DNA from: a virus
IMG/VR virus record: IMGVR_UViG_3300050121_000049
Coordinates: 1-38,049 of that record
DNA: 38,049 bases
Strand: one strand, 5' to 3'
Positions 2,291 to 35,497 of the stretch are shown here, in pieces; within the stretch, counting starts at the first letter, position 1, and each line of letters begins with the position of its first letter. A model generated the notes under the pieces. The model ran no database searches. It was not told where the DNA came from and saw only the letters and a list, made by a program, of their open reading frames with translations. Both the position numbers and the translations under genes were made by a program.

Positions 2291-3804
2291 CTACGATAGA
2301 TGAACTTGTCGTAACGCTCGCGTTGGATCCAACCAAGTTCACCAAAGGTCAAAAAGACGCGCTCGACACCTTCAAAAAAACCGACGACGAATTCACCAAG
2401 CGCCTCAAAAACCTCGAGGACCAGAACAAGAAGGCTGGTGAGTCCTTCGGCAACATCACGCACGCCGCGGAAGGCCTCTTTTCGGTGATCGCCGGCGCCG
2501 GCATGGCGTCGTTCGCGCGCGACACCATGACCAGCGTAGCTTCAACTGGGCGCCTGGCGCACAACATCGGTGAGGCCACCGGCGAGCTTTCCGCATTCGG
2601 CCGCATGATCGAGCGCAACGGCGGAAACGCTGATGCAGCGATGGGCTCGCTGAAGGGCTTCTCGGACCAGATCACGCGGCTCAACACGCTCGGCCAGGGC
2701 TCGCAAGACCTGTTCATGTTTCTCGGCACGATCGGCGCCCGCGAAGGGGCCGGTCCGCTCGAAACCTTCATGAAGTTCGCCGAATGGGCGGAAAGTCACA
2801 AGGAAAACCCGCAGCTCGTCAACCTGATTGGCTCACAAGGCGGTTTCGACCAGGGCACCATCAACGAGGCCATGAAAGGCCGCGTGCAGGTTCTCAAGGA
2901 TCTCGCGGCGGCGAGCAAGGGTGCGATCGGCCCCGAACAGGTCGAGGCCCTGACGAAGCTGCAAGGTGCCTGGGTCGGTCTCGACCAGGCGCTTGAGAAG
3001 ACCGGACGAGACATCGTCACCGACGTTGCTCCGGCGCTGACATCGATGGCGACTGCCACAACGGAACTAATCGAGAAAAACCAGAAGTGGGCTGACATAC
3101 TTGGCGAAGTGCTGGCCGCCATCACCGCCCTTACCGCGCTGAAGCCCGCGGCGTGGCTCCTGAGGCTGCTTGGACTGGGCGGTGCCGCTAGCGCAATTAG
3201 CGCGGCAGGACCGCTGGCTGTGGCTGGCGGCCTCGCCTATGCCAATCTACCGACGACGCTCGGTTCGGAGCCCAATATCTATGAAAACGGCCAACTGACC
3301 GACTACGGCCGCAAGATCACCGGCCAGGGCGGCGGCGCTTTCGGCAGCCCGCAGGAAAAAGAGGCCTTCATCCGCGCCTCGGCCATCAAAGCCGGGATCA
3401 ACCCCGATATCGCCATGGCAGTGGCCAAGAGCGAGGGATTTAACAAGTTCTCCGGTGACAACGATACCTCGTTCGGTGCCTTCCAGCTTCATGTCACGCC
3501 AGGCGGCCGCGGTCACGCCGTCGGCGACGAATTCCAGAAACTGACCGGCCTCGATCCTTCCGATCCCGGCAATGAACATGAAGGCATCATGTTCGCGATG
3601 GAGTGGGCGAAACGTCACGGCTGGCACGATTTCCATGGTGCGGCCAACAGCGGCATTGGCGACCAGCAAGGTATCGGCGATGTCACCGTCGTCGTTCACA
3701 CCGACTCCAAGGACCCCCGCGAGCACGGCCGGGTCGCTGCCGACGCCTTCAAGAACCGGGTCAATAGCTCGATCGCGACACAGGCCAACACCGGATTGAA
3801 CTGA
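2287..3804 (+). CDS. Tail tape measure protein with C-terminal muramidase-like domain
   Basis: A 505-residue protein that sets tail length and is ejected at infection. Residues 1-60 are charged and helical (DELVVTLALDPTKFTKGQKD is the common tape-measure opening). Residues 278-320 hold hydrophobic segments. Residues ~355-455 look like a lysozyme/transglycosylase-type domain, with AMAVAKSEGFNKF (candidate catalytic E383), then SFGAFQLHVTPGGRG and a C-terminal WAKRHGWHDFHGA, suited to local cell-wall digestion. At about 1.5 angstrom per residue it predicts a short tail of roughly 75 nm. It overlaps the chaperone frame by ATGA and the next gene by TGATG. Confidence 0.85.
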   Translation: MTTIDELVVTLALDPTKFTKGQKDALDTFKKTDDEFTKRLKNLEDQNKKAGESFGNITHAAEGLFSVIAGAGMASFARDTMTSVASTGRLAHNIGEATGELSAFGRMIERNGGNADAAMGSLKGFSDQITRLNTLGQGSQDLFMFLGTIGAREGAGPLETFMKFAEWAESHKENPQLVNLIGSQGGFDQGTINEAMKGRVQVLKDLAAASKGAIGPEQVEALTKLQGAWVGLDQALEKTGRDIVTDVAPALTSMATATTELIEKNQKWADILGEVLAAITALTALKPAAWLLRLLGLGGAASAISAAGPLAVAGGLAYANLPTTLGSEPNIYENGQLTDYGRKITGQGGGAFGSPQEKEAFIRASAIKAGINPDIAMAVAKSEGFNKFSGDNDTSFGAFQLHVTPGGRGHAVGDEFQKLTGLDPSDPGNEHEGIMFAMEWAKRHGWHDFHGAANSGIGDQQGIGDVTVVVHTDSKDPREHGRVAADAFKNRVNSSIATQANTGLN

Positions 3805-4379
3805 TGGCTGATGGACTTCCCGACCTGCCCATTGGCGTGAATGTTTTCACCGACGCCGTGCTGCTGGTCGCCGACGCCGTTTCGCTGTTCTCCGGTGCGA
3901 CACAGCAATGGGGCATCTTCCTTGACGGCGAGCCGGTGGTGGTGGCCGACAACGTCGTCGCGTTCGGTTTCAAGAAGTCGGCGCGCATCTCGAAGTATCC
4001 GCAGGAACAAGGTGCCTTTGCCAGCTACAACAAGGTTTCGCTACCCGGCGAACCACGGCTGAAGTTCTCGACCGGCGGTTCGGTTGCCGACCGGCAGGCC
4101 TTCATCGACTCGATCGCGCCGTTGATCGACGATCTCAACCTCTATGATGTCGTGACACCGGAAGTGACCTATTCCGGCTACAACGTCGTCAATTACGATT
4201 ATCCGCGCACCGCCGACAAGGCTGGCCTGATCACGGTCGACGTCTGGCTCGAGGAAGTCATCATCGCCGGCGCTTCGGAATTCAGCAACACGGCTTCTCC
4301 GACCGATTCCAGCCAGACCAACAACGGCCTGGTGCAACCGCAGCCATATTCGGGCGCCAATCTCGGCCCGCTTCAGTAA
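3804..4379 (+). CDS. Dit-like distal tail protein
   Basis: A 191-residue protein immediately after the tape measure gene (TGATG overlap). The N-terminal half has WGIFLDGEPVV...FGFKKSARISKYPQE, followed by SYNKVSLPGEPRLKFSTGG; this pattern recurs in Dit-like proteins of simple contractile baseplates, which form the ring joining tube and hub. The last ~30 residues are a Ser/Gln/Pro-rich flexible tail. The assignment rests on recalled similarity plus position before plug, hub and spike genes. Confidence 0.7.
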   Translation: MADGLPDLPIGVNVFTDAVLLVADAVSLFSGATQQWGIFLDGEPVVVADNVVAFGFKKSARISKYPQEQGAFASYNKVSLPGEPRLKFSTGGSVADRQAFIDSIAPLIDDLNLYDVVTPEVTYSGYNVVNYDYPRTADKAGLITVDVWLEEVIIAGASEFSNTASPTDSSQTNNGLVQPQPYSGANLGPLQ

Positions 4380-19978: not shown

Positions 19979-21529
19979 CTAGCCGCCCCTCAATCCCGGC
20001 ATCCCGTTATGCTCAACTCCGTCGAGAAGGCGACCGTTCTTGCCCTTCGGTCGATGGAACATCATCCGCGGCCGCTGCATCTCGTTTCGACCAAAGCAAT
20101 ATCCTTGGTGCACCGGATGGTCCGCGAAGATCTCGCCGCATGACGCCCAGTAAGCGTCTGGCTCTCCTTGATCGGACTGCGGGGCGAATGAACCCCATTG
20201 TTTGAAAAAATAGGGAACGCCTGCCGCTTTACACCAATCGCGGATACTGCAGGCCCAGTCGGGATGCATCGGTCGCGCGCCGGGACCGCTCTCACCGCCG
20301 ACTATCACCCAGTCAAGTTTCGCTGTCGGTTCGTTGTGGTAGCCTTCCGGGCTGTCCTCTGGAACGCAGCGCTGGCCGCGTAGCGCATCGCTCGGCATTG
20401 GCGTGTGCAGGTTCAAGGCATGGAAGGCGATGTGACCAAGCAACGGCTCGGCGCTGACGAACCGGACCGCCGCCGGCGTCTGGAGGAGCAGCGGAATCCG
20501 CTCGTCGGCTTCCTGCTGGCGCTCGGTCGAGACGCCGAGCCAGCAATTCGGCAAGGGCCATCGCGGAAGCGGGTTGGCCCAGACGTCGCCAGATTCGATC
20601 ATGCTGATTAGGGAACGAGATACACCATACCGATCAGCAATGCTTTGTTGAGTTTCAGCGCCGACCTTTCGGAGCGAGCGGATCTCCGTGACCTGCTCTA
20701 GCGTAAGTTTCTGCGGGCCGCCGATCGCTCCATGTCGGACTTTGTCGTTCTGATTTTCAGATCGCGTGCCCCATATCAGGTTAGCGAGACGATTGTCCTC
20801 TCGAGCGCCGTTGCGATGGCGCGCTTCGTGGCCTTCTGGCGGCAACCCTCTGTGAGCCATCAGAACCAGTGCGTGCACGAACCACGTCCGCGACTCTCCC
20901 TTGTTCCAGAGAGTTACCTGCTCGCGGCCGAACTTTTCGTTCATCCCGGTCGAAAGGGCACCCTTCGCTGATCTGACATTACCGTGCGACGAAGCCTCAT
21001 ATCCTTCGTAACCTGGTATTGTCGCCCATCGTTCAACCGGATCGTGATCTCGGTCGACCTCTATGGCATCAATGGTCTTGGCAATTCTGTTGGGTAGATC
21101 AGGCGCGGTCATAAATGACTGCATCCTGGCTGCACGTTTTGTGAGACATTGGAACGTATGCTGCGGTGACAGCGCCATGACGGCGAAGACCTTGTCGATC
21201 CATTCGTCGGGGCAGTCTTCGTGGAAAAGATCGCCCATCGAATTGACGAAGTAGGTGGTCGGCGCGCGGCGCGAGAGCGGCTTCAGGAACAGCTTGTCGG
21301 GCGCCAGCGCCAGCTTGCCGGTCCAGACCGAGCTTCCCTTCACGCTCTTCGTGGTCCCGTCATAGTGGTTGACATATTTCGAGTTGCTGCCGCCCGTGCG
21401 GTTCATCTTCTGAATCCGCGCGGCCATCTTCATGGCGTAGCAATTGGTGCATCCGGGCGAGACGATGCTACAGCCGACGATCGGATTCCAAGTCGCATCC
21501 GTCCATTCGATGTTCGATTTCCCGGCCAT
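19979..21529 (-). CDS. Phage Gp37/Gp68 family protein (DUF5131) with in-frame HNH homing endonuclease insertion
   Basis: A 516-residue protein. I choose ATG 21529 (MAGKSNIEWTDATWNP, the canonical family opening, after GGTGAGGGG) over 21556. Residues 1-~160 and ~325-516 are DUF5131, a TIM-barrel, radical-SAM-like family common in phages, with C20, C27 and C30 (GCSIVSPGCTNCYA), FQCLTKRAARM, WPLPNCWLGVSTE, FVSAEPLLG, WVIVGGESGPGARP and PYFFKQWG. Residues ~165-322 interrupt it with NUMOD4 (WATIPGYEGYEASSHGNVRS), an HNH core (EARHRNGAREDNRLANLIWGT) and a helix-turn-helix (QQSIADRYGVSRSLISMI). The function of DUF5131 is unknown. The intact frame suggests the host fold may tolerate the insert as a loop domain. 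Confidence 0.85.
   Translation of the reverse strand: MAGKSNIEWTDATWNPIVGCSIVSPGCTNCYAMKMAARIQKMNRTGGSNSKYVNHYDGTTKSVKGSSVWTGKLALAPDKLFLKPLSRRAPTTYFVNSMGDLFHEDCPDEWIDKVFAVMALSPQHTFQCLTKRAARMQSFMTAPDLPNRIAKTIDAIEVDRDHDPVERWATIPGYEGYEASSHGNVRSAKGALSTGMNEKFGREQVTLWNKGESRTWFVHALVLMAHRGLPPEGHEARHRNGAREDNRLANLIWGTRSENQNDKVRHGAIGGPQKLTLEQVTEIRSLRKVGAETQQSIADRYGVSRSLISMIESGDVWANPLPRWPLPNCWLGVSTERQQEADERIPLLLQTPAAVRFVSAEPLLGHIAFHALNLHTPMPSDALRGQRCVPEDSPEGYHNEPTAKLDWVIVGGESGPGARPMHPDWACSIRDWCKAAGVPYFFKQWGSFAPQSDQGEPDAYWASCGEIFADHPVHQGYCFGRNEMQRPRMMFHRPKGKNGRLLDGVEHNGMPGLRGG
20561..21037 (-). mobile_element. In-frame HNH homing endonuclease domain inside the DUF5131 gene
   Basis: Approximate limits of the inserted NUMOD4-HNH-HTH module. 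On either side the DUF5131 protein would read continuously from ...ARMQSFMTAPDLPNRIAK to PRWPLPNCWLGVS. There is no stop, no intein splicing motif and too little extra sequence for a group I intron, so it appears to be translated as part of the protein. Confidence 0.75.
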
Positions 21530-21669
21530 TATCCCCTCACCTTCCCGTCCCAACAATTAAAACAAATCTGCGCCTCGAACCTGTCCATCTCCGGACGGTA
21601 CGCATCGCAGCCGCAGCGCAGGCAGTTGAAGCGTCGCGGCTGGCGCGGGTATGTCGAGGGCTCCCTCAT
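21529..21669 (-). CDS. Tiny zinc-ribbon protein
   Basis: A 46-residue ORF coupled on both sides: its ATG overlaps the previous stop (ATGA at 21669-21666) and its TAA overlaps the DUF5131 ATG (TAATG). It has two Cys pairs, FNCLRCGC near residue 15 and ICFNCWDG near residue 38, which form a classic zinc ribbon. Its steady place before the Gp37/Gp68 gene suggests a partner role, which is inference. Confidence 0.7.
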   Translation of the reverse strand: MREPSTYPRQPRRFNCLRCGCDAYRPEMDRFEAQICFNCWDGKVRG

Positions 21670-29680: not shown

Positions 29681-30649
29681 CTACTCAGCCGCCTGTTGAT
29701 GATGGTGAGGCAGATGGCCAAGTTTCCCGATGGCGTATGGATCGGTCACGGGCAAGCCCTCAAGCGCGCGCCATTTCGCCCATAGATCGGCCAGAAACAT
29801 TTTGACCATGTAGCGGATGGCAGCATTTTTGATCCGACCGGGAGTCCACACATTTCGGAGATCGTCGCCGGCCTTGTGCATCTTCTTCCATTCTCCGACC
29901 GTGATCTTGATCCTCGCCGGGTCGCTATTGATCCGATGGCGATAGCTGTCAAACGCCTCGCGCCAGGGCGAGTTAGATCGCAGGAATGAAGGCCCCATCG
30001 CGCCTAGCAGTTTCATCTTCAGCCATGGATTATATGCCGTCGAAAGCCGCGTCGCGGCGTTGCCATTCTTGTCGATGTATTCGCGGTCGATCAGATGCTC
30101 GGCTCTGCGCGACCTGCCGGCACCATCGGACCCGACGTCAAGGCCGGTGTATTTCCAGAACGATGATGCATGACGCGCCTTGGCTGGGTCTAAATATGTG
30201 ATCAGTACGGCGGCTAGCGCGGGACCGATGCCGCGAACGTCGGCGAGATATTCGGTATAGATCGGAATTTTCTTGAGCGTGTGAACGAGCTGACCGAATT
30301 GAGATGTCTCCTGCGACTCCAGCCGCATATACTGATCGATCAGCATCAACTCTGTGTAGTCGGAAATCAGCTCGTCGCCGGTGAAGCCGGACTCGAGAGG
30401 GATCGTGCGGTTGCGGGCGACGCCATCCGTCAGCCGGCGATATGACGCCTTGAGCTGATCGATGATCTTCACCGCGTCAGCCGACAGTTCATCTGTAACG
30501 ACGCCATCTTCGTCGACGATCTCTTCTTCGGTCTTAAGCTTGGCGCGGAAATTGGCGCAGAGGCGAAGGCCGGCCTGCATTCGCAGGGCTTGGAGATCGT
30601 ATGATCCTCGGACCATCAACTTGAGAAGTCGGATATTTTCTGCTGACAT
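29681..30649 (-). CDS. Tas-like protein: coiled coil plus IS110/Nop-type RNA-binding domain, no nuclease
   Basis: A 322-residue protein directly beside the 36-bp array. Residues ~5-130 are long helices (coiled-coil-like). Residues ~131-235 carry the IS110 Transposase_20/Nop-like signature (YLADVRGIGPALAAVLITYLD at 134-154, then SFWKYTGLDVG). Residues ~265-295 (VWTPGRIKNAAIRYMVKMFLADLW) complete it. The DEDD/RuvC-like domain of IS110 transposases is absent, and so is any HNH domain. Coiled coil plus Nop domain is the plan of Nop5-like proteins and of TIGR-associated (Tas) proteins, which bind short tandem-spacer guide RNAs and pair them with DNA. Without a nuclease it might block DNA rather than cut it. 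The start has a weak ribosome-binding site lying in the last array repeat. Confidence 0.75.
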   Translation of the reverse strand: MSAENIRLLKLMVRGSYDLQALRMQAGLRLCANFRAKLKTEEEIVDEDGVVTDELSADAVKIIDQLKASYRRLTDGVARNRTIPLESGFTGDELISDYTELMLIDQYMRLESQETSQFGQLVHTLKKIPIYTEYLADVRGIGPALAAVLITYLDPAKARHASSFWKYTGLDVGSDGAGRSRRAEHLIDREYIDKNGNAATRLSTAYNPWLKMKLLGAMGPSFLRSNSPWREAFDSYRHRINSDPARIKITVGEWKKMHKAGDDLRNVWTPGRIKNAAIRYMVKMFLADLWAKWRALEGLPVTDPYAIGKLGHLPHHHQQAAE

Positions 30650-32621: not shown

Positions 32622-33767
32622 CTAGGATTTGTCGGCGTCCCTGACCTCGGCGCACTTCGCGGCCAGCTTTTCCTGCAGGGACTCGCGGGCATCGGCGCCG
32701 ACGTTGGCTTTGTTGCGGATGGTCTTTTCCGATTTCCAACGAGCCTCGCCAGCATCGGCATCGGTCAAGTTGACGATCCAGATCGTGGTGGCTTCGACGT
32801 ATTCCTTCTCATTCGTCGGTGTCTTGCCGGCGGCCGTGGCCGCCCCCTTTTCCGTGCCTGCCTTGGAGGGGTCAGCAGCAGTTGAGGGAGCGGCCTGGCC
32901 TGACGCATCGGACGGTCCGGGATGGGCGTCCTTCTGCGACGAAGCTGAATTGCTGGCGGGGCTGGCCCTGTCAGGGTCCTGGGTTTCCTGGGCTGAAGGG
33001 TGGGCCTGCCCCGCCTCCGACGCGTCGCCAGATTTCTCTCCGGTGGCGGCAGACGCGGCGGAATTAGATTGTTCGGTGACTTCGCCGGTTTCAGGGTCAT
33101 GGTCGACCTGGTTGGCGGTCGACGCAGCGCCACTGGCGAAGTCATCCAGCGACCGGCGCATAGCCGGGCTGATGTCGCGCATCGGCGCCGGCTCCATGGT
33201 CTCGATCTCCTCGATCACCGGCATGCCGAGCATGACTTCCGGCGCATAGAGCCGAATCAGCATCGCCGCCGATCGCCAACGCAGCATGTGCTCCGGCATT
33301 GAGGTATACTTGGCGTTCTTCGTCCAGTTCTCGGCGCGCGCCATCTTCATGTCGCAGGTAACCGAGATGGTCTCGCCGGAATCCGCGAGCACGGCGCTGG
33401 CGGTGACGGCCAGAGCATCACCCTCGCCCGACGGTTTCCAGCTGATGCGGTTCTTGAATACGCCGGCCTTGTTGGCGCGCGCGATCACGTATTCGGTTTT
33501 CCAACCAGGCCGACCGCTGACGACGTAGATGTTTTGGAACACCGTGAGCGGCTCCTCGTTGAGCCGGCGCGCGATCTGATAGGCGATCAGGCAATCCGCG
33601 ACCTGGCCCTTGAGATGCGGAGGCACCAGGTTCGACGAGGCGAACACCTTGGCGACGCGCTGGGCGTGCTCGAACGATGCGGGATCGGAGAAGACATCGG
33701 TGGTCGAAACGAAGTGACGTGTTGCAGGAAGGTGAACGACTTCGGCAGTTGCGGCTTCTTCGGACAT
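32622..33767 (-). CDS. recT: RecT family single-strand annealing protein
   Basis: A 381-residue protein with a GGAG site. Residues ~20-215 carry the RecT core (QRVAKVFASSNLVPPHLKGQ..DCLIAYQIARRLNEEPLTVFQNIYVVSGRPGWKTEYVIA...GVFKNRISWK, then MPEHMLRWRSAAMLIRLYAPEVMLGMP). Residues ~215-325 are a Ser/Ala/Asp-rich linker, longer than usual. The C-terminal ~55 residues are helical (EYVEATTIWIVNLTDADAGEARWKSEK). It anneals single strands during phage recombination and pairs with the YqaJ-type exonuclease at 34565. Confidence 0.9.
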   Translation of the reverse strand: MSEEAATAEVVHLPATRHFVSTTDVFSDPASFEHAQRVAKVFASSNLVPPHLKGQVADCLIAYQIARRLNEEPLTVFQNIYVVSGRPGWKTEYVIARANKAGVFKNRISWKPSGEGDALAVTASAVLADSGETISVTCDMKMARAENWTKNAKYTSMPEHMLRWRSAAMLIRLYAPEVMLGMPVIEEIETMEPAPMRDISPAMRRSLDDFASGAASTANQVDHDPETGEVTEQSNSAASAATGEKSGDASEAGQAHPSAQETQDPDRASPASNSASSQKDAHPGPSDASGQAAPSTAADPSKAGTEKGAATAAGKTPTNEKEYVEATTIWIVNLTDADAGEARWKSEKTIRNKANVGADARESLQEKLAAKCAEVRDADKS

Positions 33768-33799
33768 AGAAAAGCTCCTTGATGTTGACGCGTCGGTTG

Positions 33800-34561
33800 C
33801 TACCTAAAGCGGGCTTTGGTGTCGGGGAAAATGCGGGCACCAGTGATCTGGCGTCGCCCGGATTTGACGAAGGCGCGGAGCGCTTGTTCGATCGCGGTCT
33901 GTAGCATGAACGGGCGCAATGCATTCAGATCGATGATGTTGAGATCTTCGATTTCGAATGACCACGCTTCTTGCAGGGTCGAACTGCCCGCTGCCGTCTG
34001 CGTCCGCGCCAGCTCTGACGGTTTCGCGTTGGCAGCATCGGCAGCTTGATCCGCGCGCGTCTCTTGCTCATCGGCCTTCGCCTGGGCGAGCGCGGCCTTC
34101 TCGACGTTGCCGGCCTTCACGGCTTCGGCCGCTTCGCGCTGTGCCTTGGCGGCGGCTTCGCGGGCTACGGCTTCCTCGGCCTCTCGCCTGGCCCGCTCCG
34201 CAGCGGCTTTCTTTCGCAGATATGCGGTGGCACGGGCACCGAGCATTGCCTGGGCCTTGTCGGCGCGCGCCATGAAGCCCTTGAAGAAACCATCGATCAC
34301 GCGCTTGGCTTCAAGATGCGGTCTGCCGGTATCGTCGCGTAAGGCGTCGCAACGCTTCGAGGCCGAGCCAAGTTTTACGGCCAGTGCATTGACCGTTTCC
34401 ATATCCAGATCATCTTCGATCACCAGCGGAGACTCGGCGGCTGCCTTCTCCAGCTCGGTAATGAAGGCCTCGACCTGAGGAAAATCCTTGGCGAGCTGAT
34501 CGGTTGTGATCATTGCCGGACGGTTGTCGCCGGCCACTGGTGTCTTTGCAGCTACGTTCAT
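33800..34561 (-). CDS. Coiled-coil phage recombination-region protein
   Basis: A 253-residue protein between RecT and the exonuclease. Residues ~20-110 (DQLAKDFPQVEAFITELEKAAAESPLVIEDD...LEAKRVIDGFFKGFMARADKAQ) form a helical domain, ~110-190 an Ala/Glu/Arg-rich coiled coil (RKKAAAERARREAEEAV), and the C-terminal part a small alpha/beta domain (WSFEIEDLNIIDLNALRPFM). This type of protein is common beside phage RecT-exonuclease pairs, but its role is not known to me. Confidence 0.65.
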   Translation of the reverse strand: MNVAAKTPVAGDNRPAMITTDQLAKDFPQVEAFITELEKAAAESPLVIEDDLDMETVNALAVKLGSASKRCDALRDDTGRPHLEAKRVIDGFFKGFMARADKAQAMLGARATAYLRKKAAAERARREAEEAVAREAAAKAQREAAEAVKAGNVEKAALAQAKADEQETRADQAADAANAKPSELARTQTAAGSSTLQEAWSFEIEDLNIIDLNALRPFMLQTAIEQALRAFVKSGRRQITGARIFPDTKARFR

Positions 34562-34564
34562 GGC

Positions 34565-35497
34565 TCAAATCCTCTTAACTGCTAGGCGACGATGCTGAGA
34601 AACAGACGCCTCTTTTGGCTTGTGATTGACGGTGATGACCGGCCATGTGGCCTTCCACCCCTGGACACAAAATCCAAGCGCATCGCCGATCTTTGATTTT
34701 ATCTCCGTCTCAAGTTCGGAGACGCGATCTTCCTTCTTCTTGATCTCGGCCTTGAGCGCTTCGCGCTCGTCTAGGAACATCGGCATCGCGTTATCACTTC
34801 GAAGATCGAGAATCGTTCCGTCGTCGCGGCGGAAAAGACGCTTCACCAAATCAGCATCGCGCGTCGGATCGATCGGCGGCTGCACGTTCGCGTCGAGATA
34901 ATCGCGGCAGAAATCCAGGACGCATTGTCTGATCTTGGCCTCGGCGCCGGGGTTGCGTTCGACCGGGAAAACCTTCAGCTCCCACTTGAACGTATCGACG
35001 ATCAGGACAGCAATCATGGCCCAGGGCGCATCGGCAAGCATCGCTTCGGTGAGCGTCTGCAGTTCGTAGGCCAGCGGAACGACGGCCTGATCGTTGTCGT
35101 CGAGCCAATGCGCCTCATACCAAGGTCGCGAAACAGTCTTGCACTGAATTATGCCGACACCTTCGCGGCCGGGGATCACGGCTGCACCGTCTGGCGTCGC
35201 GCCGAGTCGGCTCTCACGGTCGCAAAGGAAAACGCTGGCGGGCTTTATTTCCCATTGCGGAAAATGCCATTGGAGAGCGCGGAACACTGCTGGCTCGCCG
35301 ATGATGCCGCGAAACATTGCATCGTTCATTTCCTGAGGCGGAGTGAGGCCCTTTTTGTCGGCCCACACCTTGGCGGCAGAGCCGAACAGGCCCTCGCCGC
35401 ATACAGCCGGGACATCAGAGGCGGTGACAAAGCCGCGTCGATAATCCAGCCACGCGTCGCGGTTCTTTACCGGATCAATTGCGATTCTTTCGATCAT
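34565..35497 (-). CDS. YqaJ-type viral recombinase exonuclease
   Basis: A 310-residue protein with ATGA overlap to the gene before. Nuclease motifs are DAWLDYRRGFVTASDVPAVCG (~14-34), RGIIGEPAVFRALQ (E68), LGATPDGAAV (D103), VGIIQCKTVSRPWYEAHW (Q118-x-K120) and PLAYELQTLTEAML. Most lambda-exonuclease-like enzymes have E-x-K where this has Q-x-K. The C-terminal ~80 residues are a coiled coil (ERE..KAEIKKKEDRVSELETEI). It should resect DNA ends to load RecT. Confidence 0.85.
   Translation of the reverse strand: MIERIAIDPVKNRDAWLDYRRGFVTASDVPAVCGEGLFGSAAKVWADKKGLTPPQEMNDAMFRGIIGEPAVFRALQWHFPQWEIKPASVFLCDRESRLGATPDGAAVIPGREGVGIIQCKTVSRPWYEAHWLDDNDQAVVPLAYELQTLTEAMLADAPWAMIAVLIVDTFKWELKVFPVERNPGAEAKIRQCVLDFCRDYLDANVQPPIDPTRDADLVKRLFRRDDGTILDLRSDNAMPMFLDEREALKAEIKKKEDRVSELETEIKSKIGDALGFCVQGWKATWPVITVNHKPKEASVSQHRRLAVKRI

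Follow-up and report, generated by a model that had tools for sequence, protein, structure and literature searches.

An HNH homing endonuclease module lies in frame within a viral DUF5131 gene

The window analysed here, a viral record of 38,049 bases, carries on its minus strand a single reading frame that stays open without a stop from 19979 to 21556, and within it we place a gene of 516 amino acids (19979–21529, minus strand), whose likely start, ATG 21529, is preceded by a Shine-Dalgarno-like GGAAGGTGAGGGG. The gene passes the DUF5131 profile (PF07505) with 293.1 bits against a curated cut-off of 28.9 (E = 2e-87), and the whole model is covered, with the match split in two: profile positions 1 to 127 fall at 21089–21520, positions 124 to 243 fall in the C-terminal part, and NUMOD4, HNH_3 and helix-turn-helix (HTH) motifs lie between them. 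The N-terminal DUF5131 part (21062–21529, minus strand) runs from the conserved cysteine motif to the LTKRAARM helix and the start of a loop, and the C-terminal part (19982–20566, minus strand) runs from NPLPRWPLPN to the end. The inserted homing endonuclease module (20567–21061, minus strand) comprises a NUMOD4 motif (20960–21034, amino acids 175 to 199) and an HNH_3 nuclease motif (20750–20881, amino acids 226 to 269), both above their Pfam cut-offs (27.2 bits against 23.4, and 39.7 against 24.8), followed by a C-terminal HTH (20585–20713, all on the minus strand) with sub-threshold matches over amino acids 281 to 325 (about 282 to 324 in Pfam) and three helices in the model. These observations confirm the sequence-only reading, which had described a complete NUMOD4-HNH-HTH module read in frame, with no stop, inside a protein of the DUF5131 (Gp37/Gp68) family; its borders of 20561–21037 were close, and alignment places the module at about 20567–21061 and a tract of foreign composition at about 20543–21151. 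From this arrangement, the product in the phage is probably a single long protein of two parts. Assembly error or chance as the source of the fusion is ruled out by a separately assembled contig (L088), which is 100% identical to the window over 5,686 nt, and by the same arrangement in a distant virus (L089). With its tail sheath, baseplate and integrase genes and a row of RecT-like, exonuclease and RecE-like genes (32622–35497), the window looks like a temperate myovirus; a protein at 29681–30649, among the replication genes, matches a PHROG labelled transposase (E = 1.3e-33).

With respect to the insert, alignment with 30 relatives reveals that the module spans a free-standing endonuclease from just past its start (...EIWKPIPGYEGYEAS) to its usual end (...W-K-H-V stop), with neither a start nor a stop codon, unlike the whole free-standing relatives. 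As judged from this alignment, the insert is a whole free-standing homing endonuclease gene minus its start and stop. The catalytic residues are intact, with H63, H82 and N94 invariant in the 31 aligned endonuclease sequences. A sequence search of solved structures returned I-HmuI (1u3e) as the sole match (E = 1.5e-8), and the module modelled alone (mean pLDDT 89.5) superposes on it with Z = 13.9 and an rmsd of 2.0 over 103 residues; the HNH core is of low confidence in the full-length model, although it is good when folded alone. The NUMOD and HNH fold is common to I-HmuI and the insert, but I-HmuI is made as a protein of its own from a gene in a group I intron, whereas the module is an internal domain with no intron. 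Alignment with relatives and structure prediction were among the checks proposed at the outset, and they returned, respectively, the module borders given above and an I-HmuI-like fold set in a radical-SAM-like barrel.

The host protein continues on both sides of the module without a recognisable intron or intein, as originally proposed. There is no match to an Rfam family (group I or II intron) in the window and no spare DNA beside the module, and an intron is rejected; neither Pfam nor NCBIfam gives an intein family for the fused protein, whereas they do for another locus described below (L210), and a recognisable intein is rejected on the lack of a splicing (Hint) domain in an insert that NUMOD4-HNH-HTH fills, leaving no room for one. 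As far as its sequence indicates, then, the insert appears to be unspliced. Between the host helix and NUMOD4 there is no ATG, GTG or TTG in the window or in L089, so an intact endonuclease would be made only within the long chain; independent translation of the HNH from M145 or M149, both in the host helix of the window's gene, is rejected, as they are poorly spaced from any Shine-Dalgarno-like run.

The DUF5131 part is modelled with high confidence in the full-length prediction (core pLDDT > 90). Radical-SAM enzymes usually carry a cysteine spacing of C-x3-C-x2-C; the host part has three conserved cysteines with the spacing C-x6-C-x2-C, which is not canonical. Its barrel matches the fold of spore photoproduct lyase, a radical-SAM DNA repair enzyme (PDB 4fhc; Z = 12.4, rmsd 3.1 over 206 residues), at 10% identity and with the differing cysteine spacing, and further structural matches are to NifB and viperin. 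We therefore describe the host, on the strength of the model, as resembling a radical-SAM-like barrel. Of the 89 alignment positions at which at least 90% of 74 insert-free rows agree, the window's host part keeps 87, with two changes at conserved sites, and the divergent host part of L089 keeps 67, so that the DUF5131 activity of L089 may be altered.

In the model, the insert is preceded by a helix (residues 133 to 140) and followed by a strand (residues 329 to 334), and it thus occupies an alpha-to-beta loop. Such loops lie on the barrel face away from the active site, and the secondary structure of the model suggests the same for the insert relative to the predicted active site. The loop is hypervariable, since insert-free relatives range from 32 to 91 residues between LTKRxxRM and WLGVSxE with hardly any residue in common; the same stretch measures 208 residues in the window and 209 in L089.

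We observe the in-frame fusion in only two viral species, the window's phage and L089, in 2.9 million viral contigs, and no similar fusion was seen in 50,697 phage records, which agrees with the rarity that had been proposed. The contigs were scanned for a pattern of an HNH core followed by PNxWL after 154 to 336 nt, which recovered the window's phage, L089 and one further DUF5131 locus (L009, below) and no others with DUF5131; such scans undercount, as a second locus (L195) was missed because its motif is PGVW. In 385 genomes of one class, DUF5131 was matched 58 times, and none of these matches was split within an open frame as long as the fusion. Five phage records and one plasmid record cover at least 80% of the query, and the three that were opened (EnalisNailo, Twister6 and a Streptomyces californicus plasmid) lack the fusion and have an HNH gene as a separate neighbour. 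Free-standing HNH genes adjoin or lie near DUF5131 in L003, L006 and L171 (Gordonia phage EnalisNailo, Microcystis phage yong2 and a Streptomyces plasmid), and DUF5131 may therefore be a frequent target of homing nucleases.

The insert in L089 lies in frame in the same DUF5131 loop and is about 57 to 58% identical to that of the window, while the two host parts are 40% and 48% identical. About 150 DUF5131 loci, some of them redundant, are free of any insert. In a tree of the host part, the window groups with the insert-free L008, its closest relative (support 100/94), L009 falls in another supported clade, and L089 and L195 sit elsewhere on long, uncertain branches. The possibility that the HNH is ancestral to the family, which had been named as an outcome that would count against the fusion, is ruled out by these insert-free loci and the host-part tree. 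Because the tree scatters the insert-bearing loci and groups the window with L008, the insert is, on phylogenetic grounds, derived rather than ancestral, and such gains occurred more than once. Upstream of DUF5131 in L008, at 1902–2750, lies a highly repetitive GYGDGCGDG open frame, which may encode a low-complexity protein or be a repeat at the DNA level.

Comparison with L008 also reveals a tract of foreign composition (20543–21151, minus strand) that exceeds the module. DNA identity to L008 is 0.86 to 0.97 up to codon HTF and drops past it to 0.63 over ten codons, with the protein still 90% identical, and directly after PNCWL it is 1.00 over 36 nt; the loop of L008 itself is unrelated to that of the window. 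Within the tract, GC3 is 0.50 to 0.59, compared with 0.84 and 0.72 in the flanks, and codon scores are poorer. The foreign codon usage and abrupt loss of identity resemble a co-conversion tract left by homing. The pattern is explained if a donor allele was copied together with its flanks, which is a signature of homing, but ordinary exchange of a recombining loop could also produce it.

The same loop of DUF5131 also holds HNH genes that are out of frame. In two other viruses, nested in the +1 frame, are an HNH gene at 3446–4015 within the DUF5131 gene of L009 (2995–4608) and one at 1969–2574 within that of L195 (1602–2960); these match HNH_3, are 50% identical to each other and are of another HNH type than the window's module, and the DUF5131 frame remains open through about 570 to 600 nt of nested HNH. 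A third case lies in a phage terminase intein (L210, 1966–4104), where a NUMOD4-HNH gene (2345–2902) is out of frame and the intein frame is open. Shuffling of synonymous codons gives chances of an open outer frame of 0.029 (L009), 0.00025 (L195) and below 0.00005 (L210, where 13.4 stops are expected and 0 are seen), and nearly all free-standing relatives carry stops in the corresponding frame. As these frames are open where chance rarely allows it, the outer protein of all three loci appears to be selected through the insert. By analogy, this supports the view that the fused protein of the window is used as such.

We consider it probable that the window holds a homing endonuclease that is tolerated in a permissive DUF5131 loop, is translated unspliced as part of the chain, leaves the host active and homes on insert-free alleles. 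A free-standing NUMOD4-HNH-HTH gene would have entered the DUF5131 gene at the hypervariable loop after the LTKRxxRM helix, lost its start and stop codons and come to be translated solely as an internal domain of an unspliced chain. The host barrel would tolerate this domain on its alpha-to-beta face, away from the predicted active site, and could retain its enzyme activity. Where a co-infecting phage carries a DUF5131 allele that lacks the insert, the fused HNH domain may then cut that allele close to the conserved borders of the loop. Recombination, for which RecE-like and RecT-like genes are present in the phage, would copy over the insert with some of its flank. A selfish homing gene in a permissive loop fits because the start and stop are lost, the foreign codons have sharp borders and an unrelated HNH occupies the same loop elsewhere.

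The fusion had been proposed to make a DNA-cutting version of DUF5131, which is possible. Under this explanation the HNH-HTH module was domesticated, and it was kept because the phage gains from a DNA-acting DUF5131 enzyme that can bind or cut specific sequences. In its favour, the window has both parts intact, the host fold resembles a DNA-repair enzyme, and a second, distant virus (L089) has the same fusion at 57% insert identity without a frameshift. We nevertheless find it unlikely, as only two viral species were found, the nearest host relative (L008) lacks the insert, the foreign tract has sharp borders, and the unrelated HNH out of frame in the same loop speaks for mobility and a tolerant loop, not for a function in common. 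Such a useful bifunctional enzyme is thus possible but not indicated, and we favour selfish homing in a permissive loop over a DNA-cutting DUF5131 serving the phage. A wider version of the idea, in which the HNH-HTH was selected because it guides or helps a radical-SAM enzyme that acts on DNA, or directs that enzyme against rival phages, and in which the DUF5131 loop is a general docking site that captures mobile nucleases, overlapping or in frame, seems improbable to us.

Homing genes inside coding genes are usually removed, and from sequence alone a new splicing device is conceivable, so that unrecognised splicing or ribosome bypassing could take out the insert at the RNA or protein level, in the manner of an intron, an intein or the stretch that ribosomes bypass in T4 gene 60. 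The lack of an Rfam match or intein family and a module that fills the insert argue against this, as does a frame that stays coding and open, which RNA-level splicing does not need; we hold it highly improbable. The least probable explanation is a recent dead-end insertion, which would have left a fusion protein without function and a gene in decay. DUF5131 does seem dispensable in phages, given its patchy presence, and two conserved sites of the host part have changed in the window, but neither fused gene (window or L089) has a stop or frameshift, 87 of the 89 conserved residues are kept in the window, a distant virus has a parallel fusion, and the outer frames of the three out-of-frame cases are open as rarely happens by chance.

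A homing endonuclease tolerated within a host protein has precedents, and the initial statement that homing genes usually reside in introns, inteins or between genes is incomplete, as unspliced insertions inside coding genes have been published (PMC9957025, PMC11855218). Arsenault, Gosselin and Gogarten described the ShiLan domain, an unspliced insertion that hides an out-of-frame HNH gene in a mycobacteriophage DNA methylase (PMC11855218, 2025), and in some of these methylases there is also a second domain, of the LAGLIDADG type, that comes with no splicing domain (PMC9957025, 2023). Like ShiLan, the window has an HNH gene inside a phage enzyme gene with a host frame that no stop interrupts across the insert, no intron or intein found as a splicing element, a patchy distribution and a host that is plausible as a folded protein; the differences are that the ShiLan HNH is out of frame, separately translated and set in a methylase, whereas here it is in frame, part of the chain and set in DUF5131. 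Closer to ShiLan in this respect are the out-of-frame HNH genes of L009, L195 and L210, and those of L009 and L195 have a start and stop of their own, which the window's module lacks; by sequence, L009 and L195 are further cases like ShiLan, both of them new and set in an unrelated host gene. In the methylase of phage Taj, the second LAGLIDADG endonuclease domain lies outside the intein and is reported to follow host descent for the most part (PMC9957025). This methylase shares with the window a homing endonuclease domain in a host protein without a detected splicing domain, but differs in nuclease type (LAGLIDADG versus NUMOD4-HNH-HTH) and in host. Among the papers searched, none names DUF5131.

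While unspliced insertion of the ShiLan type is known, what is new in the window is the in-frame HNH, the host protein and the use of one loop by two HNH types and both frame solutions. Few homing genes are known to reside unspliced within coding sequence, and the window contributes a clear example with an in-frame HNH. Two HNH types have entered the same loop of the same protein, each with its own reading-frame solution, alongside an intein (L210) whose nuclease lies in the other reading frame. This makes testable the question of whether a homing gene inside a gene must carry a splicing device or whether a permissive loop suffices, and it illustrates how a selfish gene may reside within another gene with no need to be spliced out.
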